From Gemmatimonadota bacterium (GTDB lineage Bacteria; ARS69): DNA of 62,584 nt. The notes beneath the pieces were generated by a model that made no database searches, was not told where the DNA came from, and was given only the letters and a program-made list of their open reading frames with translations. The stretch is taken from positions 1 through 62,584 of the forward strand of contig JASLLL010000014.1 in the NCBI GenBank assembly GCA_030747075.1. The letters are read 5' to 3'. Shown one piece after another: positions 21,233 to 44,658 of this stretch (positions are counted from its first letter, which is position 1; the number at the start of each line of letters is the position of its first letter). Position numbers and translations under genes: made by a program.

Positions 21233-24200
21233 CTACCGGAGCAGCACCACTTTTCGCGTTTCGTCGAAGTCCCCCGCGGTCAGGCGGTAGAAGTAGATCC
21301 CGCCCGCCACGCGTCGTCCGCCGGAGTCCGTGCCGTCCCACACCGCCGTGTGGCTGCCCGGCGAAACCGACCCCTCCGTCAGCGTCCGGACCGCGCGCCC
21401 CGCGATGTCGTACACGCGAAGGACCGCACTCCCGTCACCCTCCGGGATATCGAACGAAATGGAGGTCGTCCCCCGGAACGGATTCGGGCGCGGAGCCCCC
21501 AGTGCCATCTCTTCCGGCAACCCTGTCATCGCGGCCCCGGTGGACGACTGCACCGTCAGCGTGACCGGAACATCCACGGAACCGCCCGGATCGTTGCTGG
21601 CGATGGTGATCGTACCGGTGTACACCGCCTCGGCCAGCCCCGCCGCGTCCAGGTCCACGGTGAGATCCGCACTCGCTCCGGGAACCACCGTACCCGCCAG
21701 TGGCGACACCACCAGCCACGGAGCCGGAGGCTCGGCAGCCGCGAACTGAATGGCCAGATTGTTGTGCAGATAGCCGGACACCCCCATCAACACCTCCAGC
21801 CCGTCCGTACCGGTGGGATCCTCGATCCCCACGGTGCAGCTGGCGTCGCTGGCGACGATTGCGTACTGGTACACAATGCTCCCGTCGGCGTTCAGGATGA
21901 TCTGGAAGGTTTCCGGATTGCCCGAGTAGTAGTGGTGGATGCCGTCCCACTCCACAATGAACCGAGCGTTCGCGACATCCGCGTAATAGTAGATGGTGCC
22001 ACCCGAACTCGGGTTGAGGTCGTCCCAGAACCCGGCCAGAAGGGCGTTCGGATCCGAGCTGTTCGGGATCCCCTGGTTCGTGTAGGTGGTCGCGCTCGAA
22101 GTGAACGACAGCCAGCCGTTGGAACAGATCCGCACCGAGTCATACACGGTCCCGTAGAAGTTGAAGCTGAAGCCAAGCCCATACGGTCCGACATTCCAGT
22201 CGTCTCCGACGGAAACCGCCGTCCCGATCGCATTGATCTCCTCCCACGCATAGATCGGCCCGCCCGGCTCGTCGCTGTCAATCCAGCTGTAGCCGAACGC
22301 ATCCGGTCCGCCCTGCCCCGCGATCGGGGCTTCCCCGACGCGAGGATCGTCCTCCCCCTTGGCGAGGTCGATCGTCTCTCGCTGGCGGGCTTTCGGCCCC
22401 GCCGTGACCCAGCTGATGCTGTAGTCGAGATCCGCGTCGCCGGAGTTCGTGAGCGTGACGGTGCTCTGTGCGAACCCGTTCGGCTCCACCGTCTCCGCGA
22501 CGAGCGCGGGCGCCACCGAGAGTTCCGGCCGCGGGATGGGACCGAGCGTCGGGAAGGTGATGTAGTCCACCCAGGCCGCATCCGATCCGGTGTCCACCGA
22601 TCCATCCTTCGTGTACTTCCAGGTGAAGGTATGCGTCCCTGCCGTCACGGGCACGACCGCTTCCGACCAGCCCACGGTTCCGGACCACCCTCCCGCCTGC
22701 CCCCCGTCCACGAAGAACTCGAGGTAGTCGTAGTTGGCCTCGGATGACACCAGATACCAGAAGGAGAGGTCTCCACTCGCGTCAACATGCACATCCAGCG
22801 AGAGCACCGACTCCTGATTGTGCGTGATGGAACCCGACCGCGCCGAGTACGAACCCTCGTAGGCGGTCGATGCATCCACCGTCCAGTCGGCCGAACCGCT
22901 GTGCGCCCACGGGTACATACTGAAGTCACCCGTCTCGAAGTCCTCGCGGTAGAGAACGGGCAGGTTGAAGTGGAGGAGAGAATCCGCCAGAAGCGTCACC
23001 GTCTCCTGCGCTGCGCCCACTCCGCTTGCAGAGGCGCGGACTTCATAGGTTCCGCCTTGCGGGAGGAACAGTTCGTAAGCCCCGGTGGGATCGCTCATGG
23101 CCGGTGCCACGGGCGTCCCGAGCGCTTCGATCGTCGCGCTGTCCTGCGGCGCACCGGTCGGGCCGTACACAAAGCCGTGGAGCCTGGCCTGCGGCGCGGT
23201 GGTGAGCGCGTGACTGGCGTCGGTGACGGAGTCCTCCACGACCGTGACGGACAGTGTGTCCGGCAAGTATCCGAAGAACGAGAATGCCAGACTGTGCGGC
23301 TCCGCGGACAGCATCATGGAGAAAAGTCCCGTACTGTCGGTGCTCACACTCTGGAAACCACCGACATCGGCGACCACGGCTCCCTCGATCGGCAACCCGG
23401 TCCCTGAATCGGTGACATACCCTTCCACCGTACCCAGTCCACCCATGACGGCGAGCACCGCATTGTACGCGTTGATCATCCCGCGACCGTAGGTGTTCTC
23501 CTCTCCCGGGTCGCCGAGGTCGGTCGCCGTGTTCATGAGAACCGTCTTGATCGTCACTACATCCACATTGGGATTCGCGCTCCGCATCAGTGCCACCACA
23601 CCGGCCACATGAGGACCGGCCATGGAGGTTCCGGACAGGTACTGGTACCCGCCCCCCGGTTGGGCGCTGTAGATGTCTTCGCCCGGAGCCACCACTTCCG
23701 GCTTCACCGCGAAAGCTCCGCCGCAGCCGGAAGGGCCGCGACTGGAGAAGCCGCTGATGGCATACGGAGCGGTGGGAAGCGTGGAGCCGACGCTGAAGCA
23801 GTTCGTCTCCGAGTCCGCACGATCGGCCGGGCTTCGCAGGGAGGTGCTGCCCGATCCTTCATTCCCCGCCGACCAGGTAAGGACCACGCCTGCCGCCTCG
23901 CAGTTGTCGATCGCGGTCCACCAGCGACTGTCGCAGTCGTAGTAGCCCGAGAAGCCTTCATTGACGCCCCACGAGTTCTGCACGACATCGGGGACTTCGT
24001 CCATGGTCGCGGGATTCCCGTCCGGGTCCGCGAACCACTCCAGAGACGCGATCACATCATTGTCGAACTCCGTACCGGTCCCCTGATAGATCGCGTTGCT
24101 CGCGATCCAGACCGCCCCGGGAGCCACGCCGATGGTGTCGTCGAGGGCCAGTCCCGCAATCGTCCCCATGACATGGGTGCCGTGCCCGAGATAGTGCTGG

Positions 24201-24886
24201 TCCGCGGGTGTGGCGTCGCCAAGGTCTGCGGAATCCAGCCAGCACTCCGCCACTGGTTCCGTGTTCCCGCGCCAGCGTGCGGAAAGCGAGGGATGGGACA
24301 GATCCACGCCGGTGTCCATGTTGCCGACGATCGCCCCGGTGCCGTCAACGCCGAGCTCGGTCCACACGCGGTCCGCTTCGATCGCCTGGACGCCCGGCGT
24401 CATGCCGATACCCCGTGCGTCGCGACCCTTGCTCTCCCCGGGAGCCACCGGTTCGATCAGCTCCACGACCAGATCCGCCTCTACTCGCTCCACATCCGCG
24501 CGGGCCGCGATCTCCCGTACAGCGGCCACCGTCGCCTTCACTACCACCGCGTTCACGATCCAGTGCGCCGTCCAGCCGCGCACACCGCCACCCGACACGC
24601 TCCGTGACTCCAGATCCGCCAGCAGCCCCGCCTGCGAATCCGCAGCGCGACTCTGAAGTTCGCCGATGACCGCCCGGTGCCGGGCCTCCATCGTCGCTTC
24701 GCGGCGACGAAGCGCTCGATCCATGGCGGGCACATCCGCCTGATCCGCAAGCACCACGAGCACTTTGAGCTCGTCCGCATCGGAAAGGCCGTCCATCTGC
24801 CGCTCCAGTCCGGGCGCAATCACCCCGGCCTGGACCGTCGAACACAGAAGGAAAATCGCGGAGGCAAGAATCGGCAGCAGTTTCAT
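21233..24886 (-). CDS. Secreted subtilisin-like serine protease (S8) with multidomain tail and FlgD/Ig-like C-terminus
   Basis: 1217 residues. Signal peptide ends near residue 20 (FLLCSTVQA). An I9-like propeptide spans about 25-145. The catalytic triad is Asp191 (NMDTGVDLSHP), His235 (GHGTHVMG) and Ser421 (GTSMAGPHVAG), with Asn342 in SAGNEGSG for the oxyanion hole. After it come a carboxypeptidase-regulatory-like domain (about 485-630), a MAM/jelly-roll-like region (ending near the tryptophan-rich AWVDYITFP), Ig-like domains, and a C-terminal FlgD-type fold. The fold starts PRPNPFRG and ends KVVLLR. The tail resembles sorting domains of type IX cargo. Monocistronic: a terminator follows. 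Confidence 0.9.
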   Translation of the reverse strand: MKLLPILASAIFLLCSTVQAGVIAPGLERQMDGLSDADELKVLVVLADQADVPAMDRALRRREATMEARHRAVIGELQSRAADSQAGLLADLESRSVSGGGVRGWTAHWIVNAVVVKATVAAVREIAARADVERVEADLVVELIEPVAPGESKGRDARGIGMTPGVQAIEADRVWTELGVDGTGAIVGNMDTGVDLSHPSLSARWRGNTEPVAECWLDSADLGDATPADQHYLGHGTHVMGTIAGLALDDTIGVAPGAVWIASNAIYQGTGTEFDNDVIASLEWFADPDGNPATMDEVPDVVQNSWGVNEGFSGYYDCDSRWWTAIDNCEAAGVVLTWSAGNEGSGSTSLRSPADRADSETNCFSVGSTLPTAPYAISGFSSRGPSGCGGAFAVKPEVVAPGEDIYSAQPGGGYQYLSGTSMAGPHVAGVVALMRSANPNVDVVTIKTVLMNTATDLGDPGEENTYGRGMINAYNAVLAVMGGLGTVEGYVTDSGTGLPIEGAVVADVGGFQSVSTDSTGLFSMMLSAEPHSLAFSFFGYLPDTLSVTVVEDSVTDASHALTTAPQARLHGFVYGPTGAPQDSATIEALGTPVAPAMSDPTGAYELFLPQGGTYEVRASASGVGAAQETVTLLADSLLHFNLPVLYREDFETGDFSMYPWAHSGSADWTVDASTAYEGSYSARSGSITHNQESVLSLDVHVDASGDLSFWYLVSSEANYDYLEFFVDGGQAGGWSGTVGWSEAVVPVTAGTHTFTWKYTKDGSVDTGSDAAWVDYITFPTLGPIPRPELSVAPALVAETVEPNGFAQSTVTLTNSGDADLDYSISWVTAGPKARQRETIDLAKGEDDPRVGEAPIAGQGGPDAFGYSWIDSDEPGGPIYAWEEINAIGTAVSVGDDWNVGPYGLGFSFNFYGTVYDSVRICSNGWLSFTSSATTYTNQGIPNSSDPNALLAGFWDDLNPSSGGTIYYYADVANARFIVEWDGIHHYYSGNPETFQIILNADGSIVYQYAIVASDASCTVGIEDPTGTDGLEVLMGVSGYLHNNLAIQFAAAEPPAPWLVVSPLAGTVVPGASADLTVDLDAAGLAEAVYTGTITIASNDPGGSVDVPVTLTVQSSTGAAMTGLPEEMALGAPRPNPFRGTTSISFDIPEGDGSAVLRVYDIAGRAVRTLTEGSVSPGSHTAVWDGTDSGGRRVAGGIYFYRLTAGDFDETRKVVLLR

Positions 24887-25058: not shown

Positions 25059-28798
<3,740 letters not shown>

Positions 28799-28807
28799 CC
28801 TCGTCTC

Positions 28808-31800
28808 CTAGAACAATGCTCGCGCCTGGACGCGCGCCAGATGACGCGTGGGAATCCCCTCCAGCGACCGGCCGGAGTACGACAACGACGCCGACACCGA
28901 ATCCGACAGACGCACTTCGGCGGTCGTCCGCCACTCCAGCTCATTCTCGTCCCGGGTCCGGAATCGCATCCCCGTATCCGCGCCCCCGGCCTCCAGCGGA
29001 TGAGTCCACGACAGTCTTCCCGACACCCGCCCCCCGGCCCCCACCGAGGAGCTGCCTTCCAGCGCCACGGACGCGCCTTTGATGAAGCTCCCGCCTTCTT
29101 CATTCCGCTCGGAAACCCACGCGGCCACTCCCGACAGGCGCCGCGCAGGATGCGGCTGCCAGACCAGTTCCTCGCGAATCTCCAGCAGGCGAATGTCGAA
29201 CTCCGCCGCTCCCCGATCCGACCGCGACTGCGTCTGCCAGGTTCCCTGTGTCTCCAGCGTCCACCGGTTGTTCAGTGCGTTGCGTGCTCGAAGAACACGC
29301 CGGGTGGTGACGATCTCCACGCGCTCGGGGTCCGCACGGTTGTCTTCCGCATCGATCCTCTCCAGGCGCCCGGTGACCGAGAACCGGGCCGCCCCCGGAA
29401 AGAGCGTGGCTTCCTGTCGAAGGAGGATCTTTCCGTAGACCGTGGTGTCGTCCCGCTGGTACTTCGCCAGATCCAGAAGGTAGATCGAAGTCCGGTCGGC
29501 GGCCGTTGTCTCTTCCTGCACCCGAATCACGGTCTCCGCCTCTACCTTCGACAGGATTCGCCGGAGTGCCGAGTCCGCACTCTCCGCAGCACCGCGGGAC
29601 CTTCTGGACCTCCCGCCGACGCGCACCCGGGCACTCGCGGAAACGGCCAGTGTCGGCTCTTCGGTGGCGGAACTTCCCGCCACGCGGTCGGTGAAAACGC
29701 GGGAAGTCGCTTCGTAGGCATAGTCCCCGCGCAAGAGACCGCCGAGGTTTTCGTGGGAAAGATCCCCGCGCAGGAGATGGGTGACGCGGTCCTCTCCCGG
29801 GCGCCCTTCGACCACATCCAGCGCACGCCGGATCCACGAGAAGCGCGCGCGGAAGGATCGCGACGGGGAAGCCTCGCCGCGAAGTTCCGCAGTCCGCCCG
29901 ATCGACTGCCGGACCCACTCCCCGAGCGCTGAATCCACGACATCCGTTCGCCGCCACCCCAGCCGCGCGCGCGCCGAGTATCCCCGCCCCGGCTTCCAGT
30001 CGAGAGACGCACCGAGTTCCTCGTCGTCCTCCCCCCGGGTGCGCGCTCCGCTCTCCCGGTCCTCCCGCCACTCCTTCCACCACGACACGCCCGGATGGAA
30101 CGGACCCAGTCTCCCGATGACCTCGCCGCGCTGCCGAAGGAGATCACCCACCGCACCCCCCGACGAGGAAGTCCGGTCCTCCCGGCGCACGGACTCCACG
30201 CGCAGCGTGGCACTCTCGATGCGCCCCCCCTTCCACGAGGCGGAACCCTCACGGCGCTCACTGGCGAAACGCCCCGTCCGATCCATCCGGCCCCACGCGC
30301 CTCCCAGCGCCCAGCGCCCCGGACGCTCCAGACGGGTCTCGACCTGGGTGACCGCTTCGTCGGTGCGCGTGGTGTCGGTGAAGTTCCACACCTCGCCAAG
30401 GAACGCGCCTCGCGTGCGTCCCATCGACACGAAGGAAGCCTCCTCCGTTCGATGGGACGCGGTGGAGTGCCAGCGCAGCGCGTCCTTCGCCCGATCCGCG
30501 CCCCCGGGATCGAACGACAGCGTGACATTCCCGGCCCGGCCCGTGTTGTCGCCGTCGTCGACAGAACTGAGCGTGTTCGCGTCTTCCCGGCTCACCGCGG
30601 CGTCCATCGACAGGTGAAACGCTTCCCCGGCCTCAAGGCGAACGCCGACATCGGCCAGGGCGGCACTCCGGGGCGCCGCCAGTTCGACATAAGGCGCATA
30701 CTCCCCCAGCCCGGGGCCGACCCATCGGAAGTAAGTCAGCCCGGTATCGAGATCCCGGTCGCGCTCATACGCCCGCAACGAATCCGCCCCCCCGCGGGAG
30801 AACGAGACTTCGCAGCTTCCACTGTCCCGCCCCGCGTATTCAAAGTGCCCGTCGATCTGGTGGTAGTCTCCGTCCTCCAGATCGCACACCCACCCGGGCA
30901 CGACCACCGTGGTATCACCCGCCTGCTGCATCTCCAGGCGACGCTCATCGGTGAGCGTTACGCGCAACGGATCGTGGCCGTCCGTCTCCGCGGCGAAGGA
31001 CGCTCCGACCTGAACCCTCCGGCCTTCCGATGAGTACTTCGTCTCCCCGAAGTAGAAGCTGCGGCGGTACTCCTGCTCCGCCACCTCAAAGTCGACGGCA
31101 ATCTCCGAGTCCTCGGTCACCAGAACCCGATTGGTGAACTCCACCTCCCCGCGCGAGTAGTCGATGACATAGTCGTGGTTCTCACCGCGCGTGAGTGCGC
31201 GCCCGTCGAGCCACACCTTCTCCGACCCCGCCACGATCACGCCCTCCGGGTTTTCACCGTCGCCGGCCAGCACATACGGACCCTGCTTCCCTTCCATGCC
31301 GCGGAACTCGGCCTTCCGGAAGTTGCCACGCGCGCCTGCCCCGATCCCGCGGACGCTCACGCCCCCCGCCTTCACCACCGCCTCCGCCCCGGAGAGACGG
31401 CGGTCGAAGTCTCCGAACGCGCTCCCGCTGCGACCCGCCACGAAGTCTCCGAGCGTGGCGGAACCCCGTCGGCTCTCCACGCGAATGAGAACTTCGTCCA
31501 GCTCTTCCAGCCGCCTTGTGTTTCCTTCCGGCTGGAGAGGAATGTCCTGATCGGAGAGAAGCGCGGTGACGCGGACATGGTCGCCAACATCCCCGCGAAC
31601 CTGCACACGCAGCGACTGCTCCACCGCGGCGTCCTTGTTCGAGCCGACCTCCATCGCCAGCGTCTTGGCCCCGGTGATGCGAAGACCCGCGCCCGGCGAT
31701 GGCTGCTCGCCCCCCTCGCGGGAAGCGGATGGGGTCCCTTCCGGAAGCGCCGTCGCACCCTCGGGCGAAGCTTCTCCGCGCACCAGCGAAGTGAACTCCC

Positions 31801-32122
31801 GCGGAAGGTCCACCGGCACCCACGAGTAGCTCACCGACACGCCCCCCGGCGGCTGAATCCCATCCGCCCACCGGAGAAGCCCCGCGTCCGGGTCGAGCCG
31901 GTAGTCCACTTCGCGCGCCCGCAGTTCGCCGTCCACCCGAACCACCTCCGACCCGACCAGGAGGAATCGATGCGCCAGAACCAGGACACCGCCCTCCGGG
32001 GGTTCGGCAAAGACCTCTGTGGTCTCCGGAGCCGCCATCGCTGCGAACGCTTCCGCGGCCGCCCCTACGCAGAAGGCCGCCAGGATCGCCGCCGAGGCAC
32101 GAGTCAAGCGGCAGGCCGTCAA
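28808..32122 (-). CDS. Very large outer-membrane protein, SprA-flavoured (candidate export channel component)
   Basis: 1104 residues from a TTG at 32122 overlapping the NHL gene stop; that start gives a signal-like segment (AAILAAFCVGAAAEAFA). The first half carries SEVVRVDGELRAREVDYRLD and GENHDYVIDYSRGEVEFTN, plus ITGAKTLAMEVGSNKDA. These 'add label, restate, define DY..G.V' strand motifs remind me of SprA/Sov, the type IX channel, which is about twice as long. The second half is a long run of arginine/aromatic beta strands ending in RVQARALF with terminal Phe, as a barrel would. Homology to SprA is my impression and not shown. It lies between an NHL protein and an Omp85 in the porU/porV cluster. 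Confidence 0.6.
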   Translation of the reverse strand: MTACRLTRASAAILAAFCVGAAAEAFAAMAAPETTEVFAEPPEGGVLVLAHRFLLVGSEVVRVDGELRAREVDYRLDPDAGLLRWADGIQPPGGVSVSYSWVPVDLPREFTSLVRGEASPEGATALPEGTPSASREGGEQPSPGAGLRITGAKTLAMEVGSNKDAAVEQSLRVQVRGDVGDHVRVTALLSDQDIPLQPEGNTRRLEELDEVLIRVESRRGSATLGDFVAGRSGSAFGDFDRRLSGAEAVVKAGGVSVRGIGAGARGNFRKAEFRGMEGKQGPYVLAGDGENPEGVIVAGSEKVWLDGRALTRGENHDYVIDYSRGEVEFTNRVLVTEDSEIAVDFEVAEQEYRRSFYFGETKYSSEGRRVQVGASFAAETDGHDPLRVTLTDERRLEMQQAGDTTVVVPGWVCDLEDGDYHQIDGHFEYAGRDSGSCEVSFSRGGADSLRAYERDRDLDTGLTYFRWVGPGLGEYAPYVELAAPRSAALADVGVRLEAGEAFHLSMDAAVSREDANTLSSVDDGDNTGRAGNVTLSFDPGGADRAKDALRWHSTASHRTEEASFVSMGRTRGAFLGEVWNFTDTTRTDEAVTQVETRLERPGRWALGGAWGRMDRTGRFASERREGSASWKGGRIESATLRVESVRREDRTSSSGGAVGDLLRQRGEVIGRLGPFHPGVSWWKEWREDRESGARTRGEDDEELGASLDWKPGRGYSARARLGWRRTDVVDSALGEWVRQSIGRTAELRGEASPSRSFRARFSWIRRALDVVEGRPGEDRVTHLLRGDLSHENLGGLLRGDYAYEATSRVFTDRVAGSSATEEPTLAVSASARVRVGGRSRRSRGAAESADSALRRILSKVEAETVIRVQEETTAADRTSIYLLDLAKYQRDDTTVYGKILLRQEATLFPGAARFSVTGRLERIDAEDNRADPERVEIVTTRRVLRARNALNNRWTLETQGTWQTQSRSDRGAAEFDIRLLEIREELVWQPHPARRLSGVAAWVSERNEEGGSFIKGASVALEGSSSVGAGGRVSGRLSWTHPLEAGGADTGMRFRTRDENELEWRTTAEVRLSDSVSASLSYSGRSLEGIPTRHLARVQARALF

Positions 32123-33093
32123 CGGGCGCGGGTTTCCGTCAGGATGCGGAAGACCTCCACGGCTTCGCGCTCTCGATCCACGACAAAGACTCGCCCGTCC
32201 TCCGCGACCGCCACATCCACGGGAGCCAGGAACCGGCCGGGAGCGTCGCCCCGCTCGCCAAAGGAAAAGAGCGGCACTCCCGCCGGGGTGAAGATGCGCA
32301 CTCGCGCGGCCCCCGCGTCGGCCACGAACACATTTCCGCGAGCGCCCACATCGATCCCCGTCGGATCCACGAAGCCCTCGCCGCCCTGCCAGGAGGCTCG
32401 CCAGTTTCCGAGCGCGTCGAAGACCTGGATCCGGCGATTCCCTCGATCCACGACAAAGACGCGCCCGTCCGGACCGACCGCCACGCCAGCGGGGTCACGA
32501 AAGCGCCCCGGCTCCTCACCGAGCCCGCCGAGCTTGCCGACCGGCTCCCCGGTCGGCGCGAAAACCCAGACGCAATGCGACAACGCATCCGAAAAGTAGA
32601 GACGCCCCTCCGCATCGGTGTCCATCCGCACGGGCCGCACGAGTTCTTCGTCGGAGAAACCCGCCCCGGCGCGAAACGGAAACACAACGCCCACCGGCGA
32701 CTCATCCGAGATGGAGAACTCTTGAATCCGGTCATTCCCGAAATCCACGACGAAGAGCCGAAACCCTCCTCGGGCACAGACATCCGTCGGGTCGACGAAC
32801 TCCCCGTCGTCCCATCCGTAGCCGCCGAGCTCCCGCACGAAACGCCCGGCCGGAGAGAAGAGACACACACGATGATTCCCGGTGTCCGCGACGAACACCT
32901 GCCCCAGGGGATCGGTGGAGACTCCCTCCGGCGCGCGAAACCCGGGGGAGTCCGGCAGCGACTGGAGCGACGCCTCGTGGCGTGCCACGAAGTACGCGCC
33001 GTGGTCGGCGGAGTCCTGCTCTGCGGAAGAAGCACCGAGCACAGTCGGAGCCAGCAGGACTACGAAAGCGGTGGAGAGGATCCGGGATTCCAC
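32119..33093 (-). CDS. Secreted NHL-repeat beta-propeller protein
   Basis: 324 residues from a GTG at 33093, preceded by GGAGGT and giving a good signal peptide (STAFVVLLAPTVLGASS). The longer open frame upstream enters the next gene and lacks a usable start. About five or six NHL repeats are seen, for example FRAPEGVSTDPLGQVFVAD, FRDPAGVAVGPDGRVFVVD and FVDPTGIDVGARGNVFVAD. NHL propellers are binding platforms, not enzymes as a rule. It overlaps the large barrel gene by 4 nt, so the two are probably made together, perhaps as a periplasmic partner. Confidence 0.82.
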   Translation of the reverse strand: MESRILSTAFVVLLAPTVLGASSAEQDSADHGAYFVARHEASLQSLPDSPGFRAPEGVSTDPLGQVFVADTGNHRVCLFSPAGRFVRELGGYGWDDGEFVDPTDVCARGGFRLFVVDFGNDRIQEFSISDESPVGVVFPFRAGAGFSDEELVRPVRMDTDAEGRLYFSDALSHCVWVFAPTGEPVGKLGGLGEEPGRFRDPAGVAVGPDGRVFVVDRGNRRIQVFDALGNWRASWQGGEGFVDPTGIDVGARGNVFVADAGAARVRIFTPAGVPLFSFGERGDAPGRFLAPVDVAVAEDGRVFVVDREREAVEVFRILTETRAR

Positions 33094-33137
33094 TCTTGGC
33101 GCGACCTCCGGGATCAAAGGGACGCGTCGGCGGGAAG

Positions 33138-33887
33138 TCAGTACCGTGCCGTCACCACGGGTCCCACGACAAGACCGCTTCCGGTCGGCGTGGGGCCCAT
33201 GCGCCACTCCAGCGTGGCCTGTTCCTCCCGAACCCGACGGTTGTGCCCTCGGGTGACGGCCAGAGCATCCACCAGGGACACCAGCCTGTTGAAGATAGCC
33301 GCTCCGATAGCCAGACGCGAGTTCCGAAACGCGCGTTCGCTTCCCGAGCGCAGCACGCGGAAGCGCACCCGCGCGTCGTCGTCCGGCCAGGACCAGTAGG
33401 CCTCCGACCCGTACCACCGTGTCTGAGAAAGGAACTCGTCCTGCGCGGCGGGATCATCCGGGAAGCGCAGTCGCGCGTCGCGGCGGACGATGTCCAGCCA
33501 CTCCTCCTGCGACAACCAGTGCCCGATGTGCTCGTAATAGTCCGAACCAGCCGACGGGTTCGCCCCGCCGTGGAGCACGGCATAATCGATCATCCGGTCC
33601 CGGCGAATGGCTCCCCGATATCGGTGGATGGCAAAAGTGGTCCAGACTGCCGTTTCCACAATCTGAAAGACCGTGGCTCTTCTCGTATGACCCACATAAC
33701 GCTGGCCAAGTCCCGGAAACAGGGCGGACGACGCCAGCGCACGCGCCACCGACTTCTCCGCGGTGGAGGCACTGGGCGGGGCCGCGTCCACCCAGTCCCA
33801 GTCTCCCGCAGGCGGGGGAGGCGCCGCCAGGACGGAAGCCGCTCCCAGCGCGACCAGCAGCACCAGTCCCGCGGTGAGTCGCTTCAT
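33138..33887 (-). CDS. DUF5683-type membrane-associated protein
   Basis: 249 residues from an ATG at 33887 that overlaps the M6 protease stop (ATGA). Signal or anchor at the N-terminus (RLTAGLVLLVALGAASVLA). The segment SSALFPGLGQRYVGHTRRA followed by a hydrophobic stretch (TVFQIVETAVWTTFAI) is the pattern of DUF5683 proteins common in Bacteroidetes and relatives. The C-terminal half has RLAIGAAIFNRLVSLVDALAV, another membrane-type helix. Function unknown. Its place within the porU/porV operon makes a role in envelope export or assembly plausible. Confidence 0.7.
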   Translation of the reverse strand: MKRLTAGLVLLVALGAASVLAAPPPPAGDWDWVDAAPPSASTAEKSVARALASSALFPGLGQRYVGHTRRATVFQIVETAVWTTFAIHRYRGAIRRDRMIDYAVLHGGANPSAGSDYYEHIGHWLSQEEWLDIVRRDARLRFPDDPAAQDEFLSQTRWYGSEAYWSWPDDDARVRFRVLRSGSERAFRNSRLAIGAAIFNRLVSLVDALAVTRGHNRRVREEQATLEWRMGPTPTGSGLVVGPVVTARY

Positions 33888-36800
33888 CGGATCACCGCCA
33901 GTTTCTGCGTAATCTGTTCTTCCCGCGTTCCGGACAGCGCCTGCACGGAGCACAGGTACACCCCGCTCGCAAGGTCGGCCACCGGGAAAGTGATCACATT
34001 CTCCGTCGCGGACAGCGTCGGTCCCGAAAGGCTCAACATCTCCGCGCCGGAGAGGTCGTACACGGTGAGCCGCACCTGCGTCGACGGATCCGGACTTGGC
34101 CCGAGCGTATACCGAACGGTCACGCTTCCGTGGCTGTCGAATGCGGGATTCGGGTAGATGGTGACCGGACCGGCCAGAACTCCGCCCTCCTCATCCGGGA
34201 AGAGGGGAAGCCGCTCCGCCGGATACGATCCGTGGAGTCCCGGCCCACCGCCCAGCATGGGCCATGCGGGATTGGTCCGCGATGCAAAGCCGCCCGTGGT
34301 CCAGGCATAGACTCTCCCGTCGGTGCATCGTGCGAACAGTTCCATACGACCATCCCCGTCCGCATCGGCCACCGCCGGGACGGATGCCATCGGGCCACCG
34401 ACCGGAATCGGGAATGCCTCCAGCAGGATCCCCGACCCGCTGTACGCACGCACGGTGAAGTCCGGAGCGCCGAGGACCACATCCTGCCGCCCGTCGCCAT
34501 CCACATCCGCAATGGCCGCTCCCGGGAGAGGCAGGCCGGTCGGCGGGTGATCCACGGTCTCAATCTGAATCGGCCACCCCGGCGGATGAGTTCCGTTGTA
34601 GTTGAACAAGTGGCAGGTCCCCTCTCCCGATGGAACGGCAATCTCCAAGAGCCCGTCCCCGTCCACATCGCCGAAGGCGGGGGCTCCTCCGATCGGGGCG
34701 TCCACTCGAAGCGGCCAGCCATTCATCATCGCGCCGTCTCGATCGAGAAGCGCCATCCACCCACCCTCGGTGGCCAGAAGGATCTCGGAATCGTTCACGC
34801 CGGGCGTGCGGTCCATGTCCGCAATCCCGACGAAGACGGTACCGCTCTCCGGTTCGTCCATCGCGTGTCCAATCCGGAGAATCCGCCGCCCCTGCGCGTT
34901 GAATCGCTGAATGTGAACGCTGTCACCATGCTGATACGCCACGAGCCCGTCGAGAAGGCCGTCGTCGTTCAGATCTCCGAACGCCAGCGTCGGGAACAGG
35001 GAATCCACCGCCACCGAACCAAGGAGCGGTTTGGAGAAGTTCGTGGCGAGCGCACCCCCCGACAGGTCATAGCCCACAAGGTGACCCGCGAGCGTCGCCG
35101 CATAGACTTCGTCCGTACCGTCGCCGTCCAGATCGGCAGGCACGACCGGGGTCGTCGGGCGGCCAGCCGCCCCGAGAAACAGCACCTGCCCCGCCGAGTC
35201 CGCGGCGGCCACGGGCGTGCCATCGTCGTTCCAGCAGTACACGGCACCCGAATCCGTATACGCGACGACCTCCAGCCGGCCGTCTCCATCCACATCGCCC
35301 ATCGCGGGAGATGCCTGAAGAGCTCCATTCACGCGCCCGGGAGGCGCTGGCGCGGGCCACGAACCGGCCGGATTCACTTCTCCGTCTCCGTCCGTGTCCG
35401 CATGCCGGAAGAGGAAGACGGAACTGTCTGCGAACACCGCAACCTCTCCGAGACCATCCGCATCCACATCGGCAATCACCGGCGCTGTCGCGCCCCCGCT
35501 GCCGTAGCTCCCCACCTGCACCGGCCATCCGCGCGGCTTGGAGGAGAACCCGAAGTCCATCGTGACGGTGCTGTCCCGGGGGCCGATGTTCCTGATGGAG
35601 ATACTCGACGCAGTTCCGAGATTGCTGTCCGAGTTCGGGCGCGTATGGGGTGTGAAGTCCGCGTTGTTGTCCGCATGGAAGGTCTCGCGGTCCGTTCCCA
35701 TGGGGAAGTACGAATACGGGCTCCCGATGTCCACGATCCCGTCAGCCTCCTCGATCGTCACCCCCCGCTTGTCGTAGAGAACATTGATTCCGCGTCCCGC
35801 CGCGAAGTTCGCCAGAATCTGCCGCTCGTCGATGTGCCAGATCAGCACCCCGGGATCGATCAGGAGATCGTAGTTGTGACTGACCTCTTCGGTAGTGGCG
35901 TCGATCGGACCGAGAACCACTCCGGTGGAGTCGTCCTGATCGAGAGCCGTGTTGAACCCGGTTTCAAGACTCCCGCCATCCAGGTTGTCCACTCGATTCT
36001 CCACCAGGAAGTACTCCGTCGCACTGATCGGCAGTTCGTACCACTTGGCGGTGCCGGGAGGCAGCCCCCGCGACGGATCCTGGATGGCACGGAGCTTCGC
36101 GCGCGGGAAGTCCTCGGTCACGGTGACAGGACTGATCCCGAACTGGTACAGCAAGAGCCACCTCGACCACGCTCCCACGGCGGACGGCAAGACGCCGACC
36201 ACCTCCACGGTGTCATCCTGCGCGGGAGTCATCAGCATGACGCGAGTGAGATTCCCGCTGTCCATCAGGTCGTAGTAGGCGACGGTCGGGGTGAACCTCT
36301 CCACATTGTAGATGTCGAAGAGTCCGAGCTGGTGCCCCGTCTCGTGAGCGATCCCGCCATTCAGCGCCGTCAGAAACCCGTCCTGCGAAGAGGTCTCCGG
36401 GAAGACCATGCCTGTGGTAATGGTGTCCGCCGTATCGGTAACGACCACATCGGAGTCAGTCAGCGAGATCGAGAATGTGGGGAGGTCGTAGGGGGAATTC
36501 TGAAAGACATCGTTCTGCCAGTCACTTCCCGCGTGCATGACGAAGAAGATGTCCCAATCGGCCCAGACGAGATCGGAGTCTGCATCGGCGGCCACGATGG
36601 CATCGCGGAAGAGATTCGTGAGTCCTTCCACAGTGAAGAAGTCGTCTTCGGTTTCCGGGCCGTAGTCCGCCATGTCCGGAAGTTCGTACGCGCCCCAGCG
36701 CTGGTTTCTCGGGAAGACGGTACCCTCGATCTTGATGTTCCCGTAGCTCATGGAGAGCCAGTACCGCTGCAGCGCCTCCATGTGCGCCTGGAAGAACGCA

Positions 36801-37240
36801 TCATCGTGCGGAGGCGGATCGATGAAAATGGTCGCGGGGTCCGGGTTTTCGCGCATCATCCGGCCGTCCCCGGTCGTGAGGTCTCCCTTGGAGTCCTCCG
36901 CGAACTCAATCCGGAGTGCCGCCGCTTTCACGACCAGCGTCTCGCCTCCGTCCCGCGTGAAGGACGGACGCCGCTCCAGCGCACGCCGCGCGAAGACCGG
37001 TGTGACCGGCCCCAGATCCAGATCCAGCCGCCGGTGACGACGCTCCACTCCCTCGGCCGATCGGAGGGAGGCTTCATTCGCGCGGGAGTTTCCCTTCCCG
37101 GGGTAGCCGGCTGCAGGGAGCTTCCCCGCGCGGGCGCCATTCGGCGGTCCCATACTGACTGCGCCCAGCGCAATCAACAGCGCCAGCGTGAGGAGCGGCC
37201 GCAGGCTTCGGCCCGTTCGCTCCCGACTTCTCTCGTCCAA
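33884..37240 (-). CDS. Secreted M6-family metalloprotease with FG-GAP repeats and sorting-type C-terminus
   Basis: 1118 residues from a TTG at 37240, giving a signal peptide (PLLTLALLIALGAVSM). The zinc site is HETGHQLGLFD (His299, Glu300, His303), as in immune-inhibitor-A-type M6 peptidases. The peptidase region covers about 100-590. A propeller-like array of FG-GAP/VCBS repeats follows (IADVDADGLGEVAVF, MGDVDGDGRLEVVAY, FGDVDGDGLLEIAVP). The last 90 residues form an Ig-like module starting YPNPAFDS and ending KLAVIR. It is encoded between porV and the DUF5683 gene, so it is either a dedicated cargo or a processing protease of the system. Confidence 0.85.
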   Translation of the reverse strand: MDERSRERTGRSLRPLLTLALLIALGAVSMGPPNGARAGKLPAAGYPGKGNSRANEASLRSAEGVERRHRRLDLDLGPVTPVFARRALERRPSFTRDGGETLVVKAAALRIEFAEDSKGDLTTGDGRMMRENPDPATIFIDPPPHDDAFFQAHMEALQRYWLSMSYGNIKIEGTVFPRNQRWGAYELPDMADYGPETEDDFFTVEGLTNLFRDAIVAADADSDLVWADWDIFFVMHAGSDWQNDVFQNSPYDLPTFSISLTDSDVVVTDTADTITTGMVFPETSSQDGFLTALNGGIAHETGHQLGLFDIYNVERFTPTVAYYDLMDSGNLTRVMLMTPAQDDTVEVVGVLPSAVGAWSRWLLLYQFGISPVTVTEDFPRAKLRAIQDPSRGLPPGTAKWYELPISATEYFLVENRVDNLDGGSLETGFNTALDQDDSTGVVLGPIDATTEEVSHNYDLLIDPGVLIWHIDERQILANFAAGRGINVLYDKRGVTIEEADGIVDIGSPYSYFPMGTDRETFHADNNADFTPHTRPNSDSNLGTASSISIRNIGPRDSTVTMDFGFSSKPRGWPVQVGSYGSGGATAPVIADVDADGLGEVAVFADSSVFLFRHADTDGDGEVNPAGSWPAPAPPGRVNGALQASPAMGDVDGDGRLEVVAYTDSGAVYCWNDDGTPVAAADSAGQVLFLGAAGRPTTPVVPADLDGDGTDEVYAATLAGHLVGYDLSGGALATNFSKPLLGSVAVDSLFPTLAFGDLNDDGLLDGLVAYQHGDSVHIQRFNAQGRRILRIGHAMDEPESGTVFVGIADMDRTPGVNDSEILLATEGGWMALLDRDGAMMNGWPLRVDAPIGGAPAFGDVDGDGLLEIAVPSGEGTCHLFNYNGTHPPGWPIQIETVDHPPTGLPLPGAAIADVDGDGRQDVVLGAPDFTVRAYSGSGILLEAFPIPVGGPMASVPAVADADGDGRMELFARCTDGRVYAWTTGGFASRTNPAWPMLGGGPGLHGSYPAERLPLFPDEEGGVLAGPVTIYPNPAFDSHGSVTVRYTLGPSPDPSTQVRLTVYDLSGAEMLSLSGPTLSATENVITFPVADLASGVYLCSVQALSGTREEQITQKLAVIR

Positions 37241-37270
37241 CTGGGGCGTCTCGCTTTCTCGACCGGGCCT

Positions 37271-37297
37271 CCGTCCCCCTTTTTCGGAAGGGGACGG
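37271..37297 (-). other. Intergenic stem-loop after the porV-like gene
   Basis: Perfect 8-bp inverted repeat CCGTCCCC / GGGGACGG with an 11-nt loop, located between porV-like and the M6 protease gene. No T-tract follows, so read-through is expected; it may stabilise the upstream mRNA. Confidence 0.55.
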
Positions 37298-37313
37298 TCC
37301 TGGTACCGGAGAT

Positions 37314-38357
37314 TTAGAACTCGTACGAAAGAGAGAACCTCTTCACATCGTCGAGTCCTGTGGCCTGAGGGTACCCGGCAAAATCGATTCGTGCCGACGC
37401 GTAGGAGACCCCGATCCCGTAGGTGTAGTCGGTGATGTCTCCCGTCTGATCATGAACCCACCCGGCTCGAAGGAACACGAAATCCGCGAAGGAGTACTCC
37501 ATGCCGTAGTTGTAGATGATGTCCTTGAACTCGTCACTGAGGCTCTCGTCCGTCCATGCCGTGAAGAGCGCCTTCCACGCCGGGTCCACCGAGAACTCCT
37601 CCGTCCCGGTCCCTCCGCGCTGCCGGACGAGCACCTTGTTCACATCCGCGACCACCGAGATTCGATGCACATCATTCTCGAAGGGAGTCACGCCCAGCCC
37701 CATGCGGAAGTTGAGTGGAAGCGGATTGGGGCTTCCGTTGTCCACGAACTTCAGCGCAGGCCCCATGTTCTGAATGGCCAGAGCCCAGCGCAGGCCCCAC
37801 GGTCCGAGATCATGACCGTGAACGCCCATGTCGATGGCCCAGGTGATTCCCTGCCCCTCTTCCAGTTCTCCGATCTCCGGGGAAAGATAACTCAACAGGA
37901 TCTTCGCCCCCGCGCCCGCCGCGAAGTGAGACGAAATCTCCGTTCCCCAGCCGCCGCCGATCCCCATCTCCCAGGATGTGAACTCGCGCAGGCGAATCCC
38001 CGAGGCATCCGTCGCCTCGCTGGTCCCGTAGGTCAGAAACATGATGTTCCCGCCGACTCCTCCGATGCCCTCCATCCATTTCGCGTACGATGCGTACTCG
38101 AAGTAGACATCGTCCGTGAGGTCCGGGACCGGCGCGAAGTGCATGCCTGTCAGCGACGGACCCCGGATGTACCCGAGATTCGCCGGGTTCCAGTAGACAC
38201 CATCCGCACCGCTCGCTTCGGTAATGTGCGCGCCGCCCATTCCCGAGGCCCGGGCTCCCATGCTGAACAGAAGCCATGGAGTCACCGATTCGGAAACGGC
38301 CCCCGCCGCCACCGGGACCAGAAGAACCACCGCCAGAACACTGAGAATCTTCCGCAT
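37314..38357 (-). CDS. porV: PorV/PorQ-family outer-membrane protein (type IX secretion component)
   Basis: 347 residues from the ATG at 38357 (GGAAAGGGAAG upstream). Signal peptide KILSVLAVVLLVPVAAGA. The mature N-terminus has the family mark LLFSMGARASGMGGAHITEASGADGVYWNPANL, broken here as MGARASGMGGAHI and YWNPANLG. It ends FSLSYEF with a terminal Phe. PorV is a FadL-like barrel that shuttles cargo from the type IX channel to the PorU protease on the cell surface. The PorU-like gene lies immediately upstream in the same operon, 45 nt away, which strengthens the call. Confidence 0.85.
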   Translation of the reverse strand: MRKILSVLAVVLLVPVAAGAVSESVTPWLLFSMGARASGMGGAHITEASGADGVYWNPANLGYIRGPSLTGMHFAPVPDLTDDVYFEYASYAKWMEGIGGVGGNIMFLTYGTSEATDASGIRLREFTSWEMGIGGGWGTEISSHFAAGAGAKILLSYLSPEIGELEEGQGITWAIDMGVHGHDLGPWGLRWALAIQNMGPALKFVDNGSPNPLPLNFRMGLGVTPFENDVHRISVVADVNKVLVRQRGGTGTEEFSVDPAWKALFTAWTDESLSDEFKDIIYNYGMEYSFADFVFLRAGWVHDQTGDITDYTYGIGVSYASARIDFAGYPQATGLDDVKRFSLSYEF

Positions 38358-38378
38358 GACCAGGTCTTCCCTTTCCGA

Positions 38379-38402
38379 TTGCCGCCTGCCTGCAGGAGGC
38401 AA
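38379..38402 (-). other. Intergenic stem-loop between porU-like and porV-like genes
   Basis: TTGCC-G-CCTG ... CAGG-A-GGCAA: a nine-pair stem with one mismatch and a 4-nt loop. It abuts the porU stop, and no T-tract follows. Confidence 0.5.
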
Positions 38403-41400
38403 CTAGCGCATCTGCACGACACGCCCGATGAACTCGTCCGTCGTTCGACTCCCGCCCGGGACATCAAACTCCGCTTCGAGGAGATAAATGTAGGTTCCAT
38501 TGGCCATGGGCGTTCCGTTCGAGTCATGCCCATTCCAGATGATGCGACCCTCTCCAGCAGACACGGAGACAGGCCCCCTCTCCCTGACTTTTCGGCCGGT
38601 TACCGTGAACACCTTGAGCGTGACCTCCGCAGCCTGCGTCACGCGAAACACGAACGCCACCTCATCCGAGAACGGGTTCGGGTATACCGCGGTGAAGGCT
38701 TCGTCGATTTCGAAATCCGTGGTTGGAAGAACCACACGGAAACTTGCCGATTCAATGGTTCGGTTGCCGACATTGTCGAACGCCTTCACCACGATCGTAT
38801 GGTCTCCGGAACCCAGAGGCAAGACGCGCCGGACACGACCGGTCGTGGAAGTTCCGTCCTGATAGATGAAGTCCTCAAAGAGATCCACGCGCTCATGGTC
38901 GTCCACATCCACTTCCAGCCGGGCGAACTGAGGATGAGGCCGCAGATTGATCCCGCTGGAATCCGCGAGATCCACCAGGAGAACGGGCTTGTCGGTGAAG
39001 AGATAGTCTCCGCTCACGAAACTGTCATACCCCTCAAATGAGATGCGAAGACCCGGTCCTTCGGAATCTTCCACCTGCTCCGGCGAAATCGTGGGCGCGA
39101 CGACCAGGGAGTCGTACCCCCCGGAACCGTCACGCAGAAGATCGTCTTCCAGAGCAAACACGCTGACGCGGCCACTGTTCCCGGAAAGCACGCCCTGCGA
39201 CAGGAAGAACTTCACTTCGAACTCGCCCGCCGTGATCGGCGTATCTCCCCGGAAGGAGGTCGGGCCTTCAATCCGATAGGGAATGTGCTTCTCCACGCCG
39301 TAATAGTCCGTGTAGTCGTAGCCGGTCGTGTCCGCGGTTTCCGTCGTCATGACGAATGCCGTCCCGTTGAACGCGGGCGAACCGTGCGTTCCGTCCACGG
39401 TCTGCCCGTTTTCATCCACCACGCGCCCCCGAATGACCCGAAGCGTGCCCTCCGTGTAGCTGGAGTCCACGGTCGTGGAGTCGAACCGGACGAAGTACTC
39501 GCCGAAGCGTACTTCCATCGCGGGATCTCCAAGGACCACATACTTCTCGTTGTTGATCCTCACCGGAACACTCGACGGCATCATCATCTTGGCTTCCATT
39601 GCCGACAGCCCCACGGACTTCACCGCCCGGGAGTTGGTTTCCACCAGATACGGCGTTCCGAACATCGCCTGAAGCCAGAACTTGTTCAGCGCGGCATTCG
39701 TTCCGGCCTGCACGAGCCCACCGGATGCAAAGGTCACCGCCGCGCCTCCGTCGGGATGGAACAGGAGAAGCTCGCACATGCTGTCTCCGCCCAGTAGATC
39801 GAACCGGCTCACCGTGCACGAGAATGTGGAGAAGAGAGGAGTCCGGGTCTCGTTCAAGAGCTCCGGGATCTTCTGAGACACAAAGACCTCCTCGTGAGCC
39901 ATCGTGTTCTGATCCCCGTGCCCCGTGTAGGTCACCATGAGCGCTCCCCGGGTGAACTCCTCGATGAACGCTTGCTGGGCCTCGGGCTTCTTCCCGAAGT
40001 CGTTTCTGGGGTACTCGGTGAGGTAGATCTTCACGCGCTCCAGAGCGGTGGGCAGGTACCCGTTCGCGAGGGCCTCCACCTGCGTCGTATGAAATGACTC
40101 GCGCGCGGAGTCCGTGTCCGTGCGCTCGTCATCCGCAACCATGACGACCCGATTCTGCCAGTGTCCCGGAGTTTCGTAGTTCAGTTGCGATTCCAGCTTG
40201 TCCAGCATGACATCCAACTCCGCCGTGGTGGAAACCGGGAAGCGCCCGATCACGACATCGAGAGCCGGTTGAGCCCCCGCGCTGTCGTAGTCCGCGGTCT
40301 CCAGATAGCCGAAGAAGTCATCCGTCGCGTAGAAGGACCCGTTGTCACCGCCCTCGTACTGAGTGTTGATCTGGCGATAACGATTGTTGTACGGGAGAAT
40401 GTAATTCTCCGGACTGCCGGAGAGGTTCTGTTTCACATCAAAGACCGCGTCTCCAACCAGCACCACATACAGCGGGCTCACCGACCAGCTTTCCAGCGCA
40501 TAGGCCAGAAAGTCCCGGATGGCGGAAGGATCCTGCATGCCCCACCCGAACTCATTGAACACGGACTCGATGTCCACCACCGCCGTCGTGTACGGATGAG
40601 GGGCAAAACCCGCACGAAGCGAGGCAAGACGCTCAGCGCCTTCCCGGAACTTCGAGTGGGTAATGACCAGATACTCCGCGGCCCGCGCGGGACTCCGGAG
40701 GCCGACGATCTCGACCGTCTCCGCCGGGGGAAGCGAGAGAAACCCGGCAGGTGACACGCAGGTGTACCAGCGAACACCGCTGCCCGGCGAATCCGACATG
40801 CGCACACCATGCGGCGACAGCGCCTCGGAGACGGTGTAGTCGGTGAGGCGTACCGTTTCGTGGGCGTCCGTCACATCGAACAGAAGGATGTCGTCCGGAG
40901 CCGCATCAAAGCCGGAGAGGAGGTAGTCCGAGACGCTGTCCGCAGGATCGGAGTACCAGGACAACGAGTGTCCCCCCTCCGCCTCCAGCGCCCTCTCGTA
41001 CTCCACCTCAAACCAGGCGAGGTAAAGATGGTCGGAGAAGGTCGCTCCCTCGGAACTTGCGTTGATGACCAGCGAGTTCGTTCCGTCTTGCAGCGTGGAT
41101 ACGCTCCCCGACAGATCCATCGTCGCGAGGTACGCGGAGTGCGTCCAGACCGTATCCGCGGCCAACCCTCCCTGAAGATAGAGCTCAACATCCCGCTGGG
41201 GTGCCGTAAGACTCCCCTGGAAGCTGTAGAGTCGCGCCCTGACCATTGCTTCCGGAGATGTTGCGCGATCCAGAAACATGGAGTACGACCGGTTGTCTCC
41301 CCTGCCGAAAAGGGACTCCCACATCCAGCCGTCTTCATCCCGATGCTTGAAACTCTCCAGATTGTCTTCTTCGAAGTGAATCCGATGCGGTGCCGTGGTC

Positions 41401-42551
41401 GCATAGGAAGTGGCGCTCGCCGCCGCGCTGCGCGTGGTCATCCGCGCCGGAGGATCCACGAACGACCCGCCCCAGGTGATCCAGTAGGTGGTCTCCCGGT
41501 TGTACGGGTTGTCGATGTGGTCGGTGCGGGCCAGGGACGAAGAATACTCCGCCCCCCAGGCCGAAGGGCCGAGCGCATGGAAGACAAAACGGTCACTCAG
41601 ATCAAAAACGCTGTCCCCGTCGCCGAGATCCAGAAGGGCACACTCGGACATGAACTCAGGACGCGCGACCGAATAATCCTCCGGCAGTTCGATCCCGGAC
41701 CCGGAAAACACACGAATGGTCGTCGGGTCCACCGATCCCGGATCCACGCCGACATCGTTGAAGGTAAAGTAGTCCAGCTGGTACATCCCCCCCGCCTGGA
41801 TGGGCACCTTCAACCAGACCGGCGCCGAACCGAAGGAGTCCCCGAGACCCCGGACTCCCCCCGCCCGGCGCGGAGTCCGCCAGCGACGAGCCGTTCGAGC
41901 ATTCAGGAGAGCCGAATCGAAGGCCGCTTCGAAGTCCGCTGCATCCCGACGCGGAATGCCCGCCCGACTCGTCTCCGGCCTGGAAAAGTCCAACCGGACG
42001 ATGAAGCGCTCCGCCCATACGAGCTCCCTCGACCCCGCGTCATGCCGAACGGGATGGAAGACCAGCCGGGCCACTCGTTGCCCCCTCACGCTCGAGGTTC
42101 CCGCAATCTCCGCCCATGGGTGCGAGCGGATCGCGGCACTCCCGGGCGCGTCGTCCGATTCGTCCATCCGGGTGCTCAAGGCATAGGGAAAGGGGCTGCG
42201 GGTCACGGAAACCGCAGACACCGTGACTTTCGGGATCTCCCCGGGGGGAATGCCCAGAAGCCCTACGGCCGATGGCAGGTCCGCCTCTCCCGGCCTGGCC
42301 AGATGCACCGCCCGGCTGAAAGTGGGCCGCTTGGTAGCTCCGCGACCGGGGACATCTTCCAGCGCCCGCTCGGGCAGCGTCCATTCGACGACCAGTGATC
42401 GCTCGTCGGAGGAGATCACACGAATCCCTGACGCTTCCGCGGCGAGGGCCGACGGCTGCAAGAGAAGCCCCACCGGAGAGAGTGCACTCAGGACGGCCCC
42501 CACAAGAACCGCCGCCGCTGGTTTGGATCCCGCAAGATGGAGTTTCCGCAT
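38403..42551 (-). CDS. porU: C25 gingipain-like peptidase, PorU-type
   Basis: 1382 residues from the ATG at 42551 with signal peptide (AAAVLVGAVLSALSPVGLLL). The catalytic pair is His878 in VTYTGHGDQNT and Cys912 in FSTFSCTVSRFD, the gingipain/PorU arrangement. Upstream are N-terminal beta domains with YWITWGGSF typical of PorU. Behind the protease are Ig-like regions and a FlgD-type C-terminal fold (VYPNPFSDEV ... IGRVVQMR). In Bacteroidetes PorU is the surface sortase that removes cargo C-terminal domains and attaches A-LPS. It is directly followed by porV. No convincing promoter was found between it and accA. Confidence 0.85.
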   Translation of the reverse strand: MRKLHLAGSKPAAAVLVGAVLSALSPVGLLLQPSALAAEASGIRVISSDERSLVVEWTLPERALEDVPGRGATKRPTFSRAVHLARPGEADLPSAVGLLGIPPGEIPKVTVSAVSVTRSPFPYALSTRMDESDDAPGSAAIRSHPWAEIAGTSSVRGQRVARLVFHPVRHDAGSRELVWAERFIVRLDFSRPETSRAGIPRRDAADFEAAFDSALLNARTARRWRTPRRAGGVRGLGDSFGSAPVWLKVPIQAGGMYQLDYFTFNDVGVDPGSVDPTTIRVFSGSGIELPEDYSVARPEFMSECALLDLGDGDSVFDLSDRFVFHALGPSAWGAEYSSSLARTDHIDNPYNRETTYWITWGGSFVDPPARMTTRSAAASATSYATTAPHRIHFEEDNLESFKHRDEDGWMWESLFGRGDNRSYSMFLDRATSPEAMVRARLYSFQGSLTAPQRDVELYLQGGLAADTVWTHSAYLATMDLSGSVSTLQDGTNSLVINASSEGATFSDHLYLAWFEVEYERALEAEGGHSLSWYSDPADSVSDYLLSGFDAAPDDILLFDVTDAHETVRLTDYTVSEALSPHGVRMSDSPGSGVRWYTCVSPAGFLSLPPAETVEIVGLRSPARAAEYLVITHSKFREGAERLASLRAGFAPHPYTTAVVDIESVFNEFGWGMQDPSAIRDFLAYALESWSVSPLYVVLVGDAVFDVKQNLSGSPENYILPYNNRYRQINTQYEGGDNGSFYATDDFFGYLETADYDSAGAQPALDVVIGRFPVSTTAELDVMLDKLESQLNYETPGHWQNRVVMVADDERTDTDSARESFHTTQVEALANGYLPTALERVKIYLTEYPRNDFGKKPEAQQAFIEEFTRGALMVTYTGHGDQNTMAHEEVFVSQKIPELLNETRTPLFSTFSCTVSRFDLLGGDSMCELLLFHPDGGAAVTFASGGLVQAGTNAALNKFWLQAMFGTPYLVETNSRAVKSVGLSAMEAKMMMPSSVPVRINNEKYVVLGDPAMEVRFGEYFVRFDSTTVDSSYTEGTLRVIRGRVVDENGQTVDGTHGSPAFNGTAFVMTTETADTTGYDYTDYYGVEKHIPYRIEGPTSFRGDTPITAGEFEVKFFLSQGVLSGNSGRVSVFALEDDLLRDGSGGYDSLVVAPTISPEQVEDSEGPGLRISFEGYDSFVSGDYLFTDKPVLLVDLADSSGINLRPHPQFARLEVDVDDHERVDLFEDFIYQDGTSTTGRVRRVLPLGSGDHTIVVKAFDNVGNRTIESASFRVVLPTTDFEIDEAFTAVYPNPFSDEVAFVFRVTQAAEVTLKVFTVTGRKVRERGPVSVSAGEGRIIWNGHDSNGTPMANGTYIYLLEAEFDVPGGSRTTDEFIGRVVQMR

Positions 42552-44573: not shown

Positions 44574-44658
44574 CGGTTCCTCCGGTGGGAAATGCCCCTC
44601 CGCCGCGCCCGGCACGCATCCGGAGCGGGACGCGGGCGGGCCACTCCCGGCGCCGGGG

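Follow-up and report, generated by a model that had tools for sequence, protein, structure and literature searches.

A conserved type IX secretion locus in a Gemmatimonadota bacterium encodes a predicted short giant barrel that is likely related to SprA

A cluster of seven genes in a Gemmatimonadota bacterium (GenBank assembly GCA_030747075.1), carried on contig JASLLL010000014.1, whose 62,584 nucleotides we call the window, is a genuine and conserved variant of type IX secretion. On our best reading it encodes the outer-membrane and surface half of the system together with a second, short barrel of the SprA type. We put at about one half the probability that this explanation holds as a whole, that is, an outer-membrane half of type IX with an accessory SprA-type barrel and its Omp85 and NHL helpers. 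A broader proposition, which we consider quite unlikely, is that the short barrel is a second and so far unrecognised translocon-type component of type IX systems across much of the FCB superphylum, the model genus Flavobacterium included, and operates outside the classical Bacteroidota with SprA, PorV and PorU and no PorL/PorM rotary motor. A second family with approximately the strand number of SprA, half its length and an FCB-wide range would change the list of type IX parts, and it is in this family and its reach, rather than in a missing channel, that the interest of the locus lies.

Results

Genes of the locus

All seven cluster genes, between positions 27098 and 42551, are co-directional on the minus strand (Table 1). 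Overlaps of 4 nt join the barrel and NHL genes (32119-32122), the DUF5683-like and M6 genes (33884-33887), and the Omp85 gene and a LigA gene (27098-27101). The Omp85 gene is part of the unit, though it lies outside the interval 28808-42551 first delimited. An earlier note on this DNA had listed PorU, PorV, an M6 protease, DUF5683, an NHL protein and a 1104-residue barrel as a co-directional set with 4-nt overlaps, and profile scores, open reading frames and motifs confirm that this set is real. The note's proposal of a type IX-like export locus is sustained by PorU and PorV scores over curated family cut-offs, by cargo with a type A tail and by the presence of SprA in the genome.

Table 1. 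Genes of the type IX cluster and a nearby putative cargo gene (positions in the window).
Feature	Position	Strand	Evidence
PorU, type IX sortase, C25 protease	38403..42551	-	NF033707, 542 bits (cut-off 420)
PorV, FadL-like shuttle for type A cargo in the outer membrane	37314..38357	-	NF033709, PF19572
M6 metalloprotease, FG-GAP repeats and type A sorting tail	33884..37240	-	TIGR04183, HETGH motif
DUF5683-like helical protein	33138..33887	-	Homologue passing PF18935 cut-off; AlphaFold2
NHL beta-propeller with signal peptide	32119..33117 (start 33117 or 33093)	-	PF01436
SprA-related short giant barrel, 1104 aa	28808..32122	-	AlphaFold2, Foldseek, hhalign
Omp85/BamA-like protein, two POTRA matches	27098..28798	-	PF07244, PF01103
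S8 subtilase carrying a CTD tail; probable cargo of the type IX system, close to the cluster	21233..24886	-	PF00082, TIGR04183

The PorU reading frame starts with ATG at 42551 and has a propeptide-like N-terminus and an FlgD/CTD-like C-terminus. A residue check places its catalytic dyad at His878 (in GHG) and Cys912 (in TFSC), exactly where the earlier note had put these residues, and the dyad region aligns with Porphyromonas gingivalis PorU (PDB 6za2, E 9e-44). The adjacent carrier passes the PorV/PorQ family model NF033709 (195 bits, cut-off 90) and PF19572 (54 bits, cut-off 27). It reaches 139 bits with the PorV equivalog NF033710, below the cut-off of 250, and 65 and 30 bits with the PorQ and PorV2 models. 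Cut-off scores assign it to the PorV family; best match and neighbour suggest that it is PorV itself.

Judging from its type A sorting tail (TIGR04183, 28.2 bits, cut-off 23), the M6 protease is a probable type IX cargo. It scores 202 bits with NF052323, below the cut-off of 600, and the label of that family, "inactivated M6", was rejected because this protein and most of its relatives keep an intact HExxH motif; the window copy aligns as HETGHxxGxxD. In two Zixibacteria the M6 homologue has lost HExxH. The S8 subtilase combines a catalytic domain match of 161 bits (PF00082) with a CTD tail of 30 bits (TIGR04183, cut-off 23).

The DUF5683-like protein of the window matches PF18935 weakly (13.9 bits, E 0.06, gathering score 26.7), and a homologue in another locus, L079, passes that cut-off with 30 bits. 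The window protein has a signal peptide and an SxxxPGxGQ motif. Its AlphaFold2 model is confident and helical (pLDDT 86) and found no match among PDB folds. The window locus holds one such copy, and the loci of most other phyla hold two. The NHL protein scores 100 bits with PF01436 and matches NHL/TRIM propellers in the PDB (E 9e-44). The Omp85 protein passes the superfamily domain (57 bits, cut-off 24), falls under the cut-off of the BamA model TIGR03303 (108 bits against 297) and matches BamA in the PDB (E 5e-16); by these scores it resembles BamA, which points to a role in assembly and not to a channel for export.

SprA is encoded elsewhere in the same genome

The earlier note had suggested that the NHL, large-barrel and Omp85 genes could supply the channel of a reduced or rearranged system. 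This is not supported: a full-length SprA, a 2022-aa reading frame, lies on contig C7 of the same genome (5286-11351; 550.7 bits joined, cut-off 200), and the Omp85 protein is BamA-like. With a full-length SprA present, the 1104-aa protein is no substitute for the channel. The wider genome check proposed in the note was thus split in its outcome, as full-length SprA was found, the PorL, PorM and PorN profiles gave no match, and the cluster proved to be conserved.

A predicted giant barrel distantly matched to SprA

The 1104-aa protein passes no named family in Pfam and NCBIfam, its best match being 29 bits to SprA (TIGR04189, cut-off 200), and we found no description of its family in the open literature searched. 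A PDB profile search returned nothing significant and a viral fold library nothing useful. PorF (PG0534), described as a 92-kDa TonB-receptor-like protein (PMC5445135), was dropped as a possible identity on that description only. The protein has a signal peptide, an Ig-like N-terminal domain and a terminal phenylalanine; 73 homologues have a median length of 1134 aa, and 71 of the 73 also end in phenylalanine.

An AlphaFold2 model built with these homologues (mean pLDDT 86.3, pTM 0.75) predicts a giant beta-barrel, in keeping with the earlier description of the protein as barrel-like. Outside the inserts the model has 39 strands with 7 or more residues; over the whole chain, 37 strands have 9 or more. 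From these counts we estimate about 36-38 barrel strands. Two inserts occupy residues about 275-351 and 386-485, after about strands 8 and 10. For SprA, said to be the largest known outer-membrane barrel made of a single chain, the count is 36 strands, with caps inserted between strands 7 and 8 and between strands 11 and 12 (PMC9127263).

In a Foldseek search of the model against the PDB, SprA entries take the first four places (E from 5e-11 to 1e-8) and TonB receptors rank after them; TM-scores to SprA are low (0.21-0.26), so that this is a ranking and not a superposition. Alignment of the barrel profile with a profile of 21 SprA sequences by hhalign gave three collinear matches: the first strands (162-275, E 1.4e-5 as a slice), a cap segment (280-378, probability 97%, E 1.6e-10) and the C-terminal strands (E 3.5e-4). 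As controls, reversed SprA, Omp85, PorV, NHL and M6 profiles reached E 0.03-0.6 against the whole profile; with the C-terminal slice, reversed SprA did no better than 0.016. These alignments make common ancestry of the barrel and SprA likely, mainly on the strength of the N-terminal third, with descent of the whole chain not proven. The predicted barrel shares with the SprA/Sov translocon (TIGR04189; PDB 6h3i, 8gl8) an approximate strand number, an early cap-type insert, local profile homology and the terminal strands. It differs in having half the length (1104 against 2022 aa in this genome), in scoring 29 bits where the SprA cut-off is 200, and in forming a separate family that coexists with SprA. 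The domain of about 100 residues that matches SprA in the cap segment recurs at the barrel's own N-terminus.

The cluster is conserved across the FCB superphylum

A scan of genome contigs recovered at least 589 confirmed barrel loci across the FCB superphylum, 80 of which were kept. Among the loci listed are Zixibacteria, KSB1, Calditrichota, Krumholzibacteriota, Neomarinimicrobiota, Ignavibacteria, Cloacimonadota, Latescibacterota and Bacteroidota. The order PorV-M6-DUF5683-NHL-barrel-Omp85 is complete in 12 of the loci kept (Zixibacteria, Krumholzibacteriota and other MAGs), with PorU upstream of PorV wherever the DNA reaches that far, and relatives belonging to several families have homologues of the window proteins in matching order. 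Comparison with related genomes, as the earlier note had advised, thus extends the order to other phyla, with at least 12 full loci; since homologues stand in the same order in many genomes, the cluster is not due to chance. Its most conserved sub-cluster is NHL-barrel-Omp85, and both partners flank the barrel in 27 of the 56 loci whose DNA extends far enough to tell. Most of the Bacteroidota loci retrieved carry a lone barrel gene, with no NHL, Omp85 or PorU/V gene beside it. The barrel family tree largely follows phyla and places the window protein beside M3-22_Bin_282, then Krumholzibacteriota and related MAGs.

We surveyed 144 genomes, mostly one per family, with a barrel threshold of at least 200 bits. 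The barrel was found in 33, SprA in 40 and both in 31 (Fisher p 4e-21, kinship ignored); PorU exceeded its cut-off in 28 genomes, 27 of which also carry the barrel. In a set of 118 Bacteroidota genomes the barrel occurs in 76, all 76 with SprA, while 15 of the 91 SprA-positive genomes have no barrel, which shows that the barrel is not essential to the type IX system. The co-occurrence is confounded by phylogeny, both genes being FCB traits and the SprA-negative Bacteroidota coming nearly all from one family, and we therefore take it as supporting evidence only.

PorL, PorM and PorN profiles find no match

Among the window genes examined, no porK, porL, porM or porN was recognised, as the earlier note had reported, and the profiles for PorL (TIGR03513), PorM (TIGR03517) and PorN (TIGR03523) found no match in the genome, which is 100% complete. 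PorM and PorN profiles matched one of the 144 genomes (G062) and none of the 40 that are SprA-positive. Among the 38 genomes tested with PorL, the four PorM-positive controls alone exceeded the cut-off. Clustering of 19 SprA neighbourhoods revealed no shared motor-like family; what was recognised there was a glutaminyl-cyclase-type M28 enzyme and LptF/G-like genes. By these profiles the PorL/M motor is undetected in this genome, with profile divergence possible.

The locus resembles the type IX system of Bacteroidota (SprA/Sov, PorV, PorU, PorKLMN) in its adjacent PorU and PorV, the SprA of the genome and the type A-tailed cargo. It differs in having no detectable PorL/M/N and in an additional conserved module, DUF5683-NHL-short barrel-Omp85. 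Sov, PorU and PorV without PorK, L, M and N have been reported from Bacteroidetes "Incertae sedis" (PMC7323717), and possible type IX systems from other FCB phyla (PMC11285876); given these precedents, the motor-less pattern is an extension and not a first report. The genomes of the former study are Bacteroidetes only, and its accessible text does not describe the short-barrel cluster.

Discussion

In the mechanism that we favour, the genes of the cluster would function together. CTD cargo such as the M6 protease and the nearby S8 subtilase would cross the outer membrane through the SprA encoded on another contig, and would then be carried by PorV and processed by the PorU sortase. The 1104-aa barrel would most likely act beside SprA, as an accessory translocon or as a docking barrel for carrier-bound proteins. 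BamA and BamB assemble ordinary outer-membrane barrels. By analogy, the Omp85 and NHL proteins, probably co-transcribed with the barrel, would most likely be helpers that insert or stabilise an unusually large one. As in the BAM complex (BamA with the BamB propeller; BamADGH in Bacteroidota), a POTRA-bearing Omp85 protein and an exported propeller are encoded together here; unlike it, the propeller is of the NHL and not the BamB type, the Omp85 protein has about two POTRA domains, and its BamA score is 108 against 297.

The PorU, PorV and SprA steps are those of the known pathway, in which cargo binds PorV at the lateral opening of SprA and its release takes energy; in Flavobacterium johnsoniae this energy has been shown to come from the motor (PMC10994853). 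The finding that 40 SprA-positive relatives have no detectable PorM or PorN raises the question of how release is powered outside the classical Bacteroidota, and we infer that some other energy source would replace PorLM. Alternatively, a motor could exist whose sequences have drifted beyond the reach of the TIGR profiles, and the system would then be ordinary and complete as to energy. This is possible, though we lean against it. The profiles were built on Bacteroidota, and three genomes of the Bacteroidota set with very high SprA scores (G150, G177 and G232) also have no GldM/GldL match; yet no PorM or PorN appears in any of the 40 SprA-positive relatives, no PorL exceeds the cut-off in those tested, and control genomes score far over it.

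Two other readings concern the role of the barrel. It may itself translocate proteins through a lateral gate of its own, serving PorV or a PorV-like carrier and a subset of cargo; this is the channel role raised in the earlier note, but alongside SprA. Cap-like inserts close in position to those of SprA and linkage to PorV and PorU in several lineages point that way, but SprA is also present, and the gene stands alone in most Bacteroidota loci retrieved; we regard this reading as unlikely. Alternatively, the barrel may have an unrelated function in the outer membrane (uptake, adhesion or envelope structure), its linkage to PorU and PorV being incidental and its likeness to SprA reflecting a widespread cap-type beta-domain. 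In favour of this are the lone gene of most Bacteroidota loci, a strongest SprA match that spans only about 100 residues of a domain also found at the barrel's N-terminus, and the two or three genomes that carry the barrel but give no SprA match at the threshold used. The two further collinear matches (first strands and C-terminal strands), the near-perfect co-occurrence with SprA and the PorU/PorV linkage kept in several phyla argue against it, and we hold it doubtful to a similar degree.

We consider it very unlikely that Omp85, NHL and barrel form a dedicated BAM variant that inserts SprA-size barrels, with the barrel as a subunit and not a client: they are the most conserved sub-cluster, and the BAM complexes of Bacteroidota, which are adapted to complex outer-membrane proteins, include a further barrel subunit, BamG, but from F. 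johnsoniae the purified complex is reported with no subunits beyond BamA, D, G, H, M and P (PMC12611786), although the barrel family occurs in Flavobacterium species.

The role of the short barrel that we favour, beside SprA, is directly testable through its homologues in Flavobacterium: F. rivuli and F. zepuense are among the barrel-family hosts listed.

Distribution of SprA, the short barrel and GldL, GldM and GldN

GldL, GldM and GldN were all matched in G062, a single-contig Bacteroidota genome in which neither SprA, the full-length type IX translocon, nor the short barrel, the SprA-related family of the window's 1104-residue protein, had a match. Three other compared genomes (G041, G096 and G111, the last with a weak match) carry the short barrel and gave no match to SprA at the threshold applied; they may have either a diverged SprA or the short barrel without SprA. 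An in-frame TAA lies within the match to the C-terminal part of SprA in a further genome (G013:C79:21684-22175).

Genes near SprA and PorU

SprA is directly adjoined by an M28 enzyme in 9 of 19 SprA neighbourhoods, although the Q-rule has been described as Bacteroidetes-specific (PMC5837995); the best solved match of this glutamine-cyclotransferase-like enzyme is the glutamine cyclotransferase 6qro (E 4e-47). Eight of the 19 have an LptF/G-like gene pair, assigned by eye, next to SprA. Across AccA from PorU lies the gene of a probable outer-membrane protein to which neither Pfam nor NCBIfam gives any match. The catalytic motif of the M6 protease (window 33884-37240) is intact in most lineages, but its HExxH is gone in the two Zixibacteria (L033, L034).

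Coordinates of the features discussed
Feature	Location	Remarks
M28 enzyme	L021:4308-5231 (G000:C7, window's own genome)	adjoins SprA
M28 enzyme, other SprA loci	L143, L145, L147, L149, L150, L156, L159, L160	
LptF/G-like pair	L021:11461-13922 and 7 further SprA loci	divergent to SprA; by eye
GldL/GldM/GldN region of G062	G062:C1:3472730-3476068	
Probable outer-membrane protein, 294 aa	window 43731-44615	signal peptide, terminal Phe
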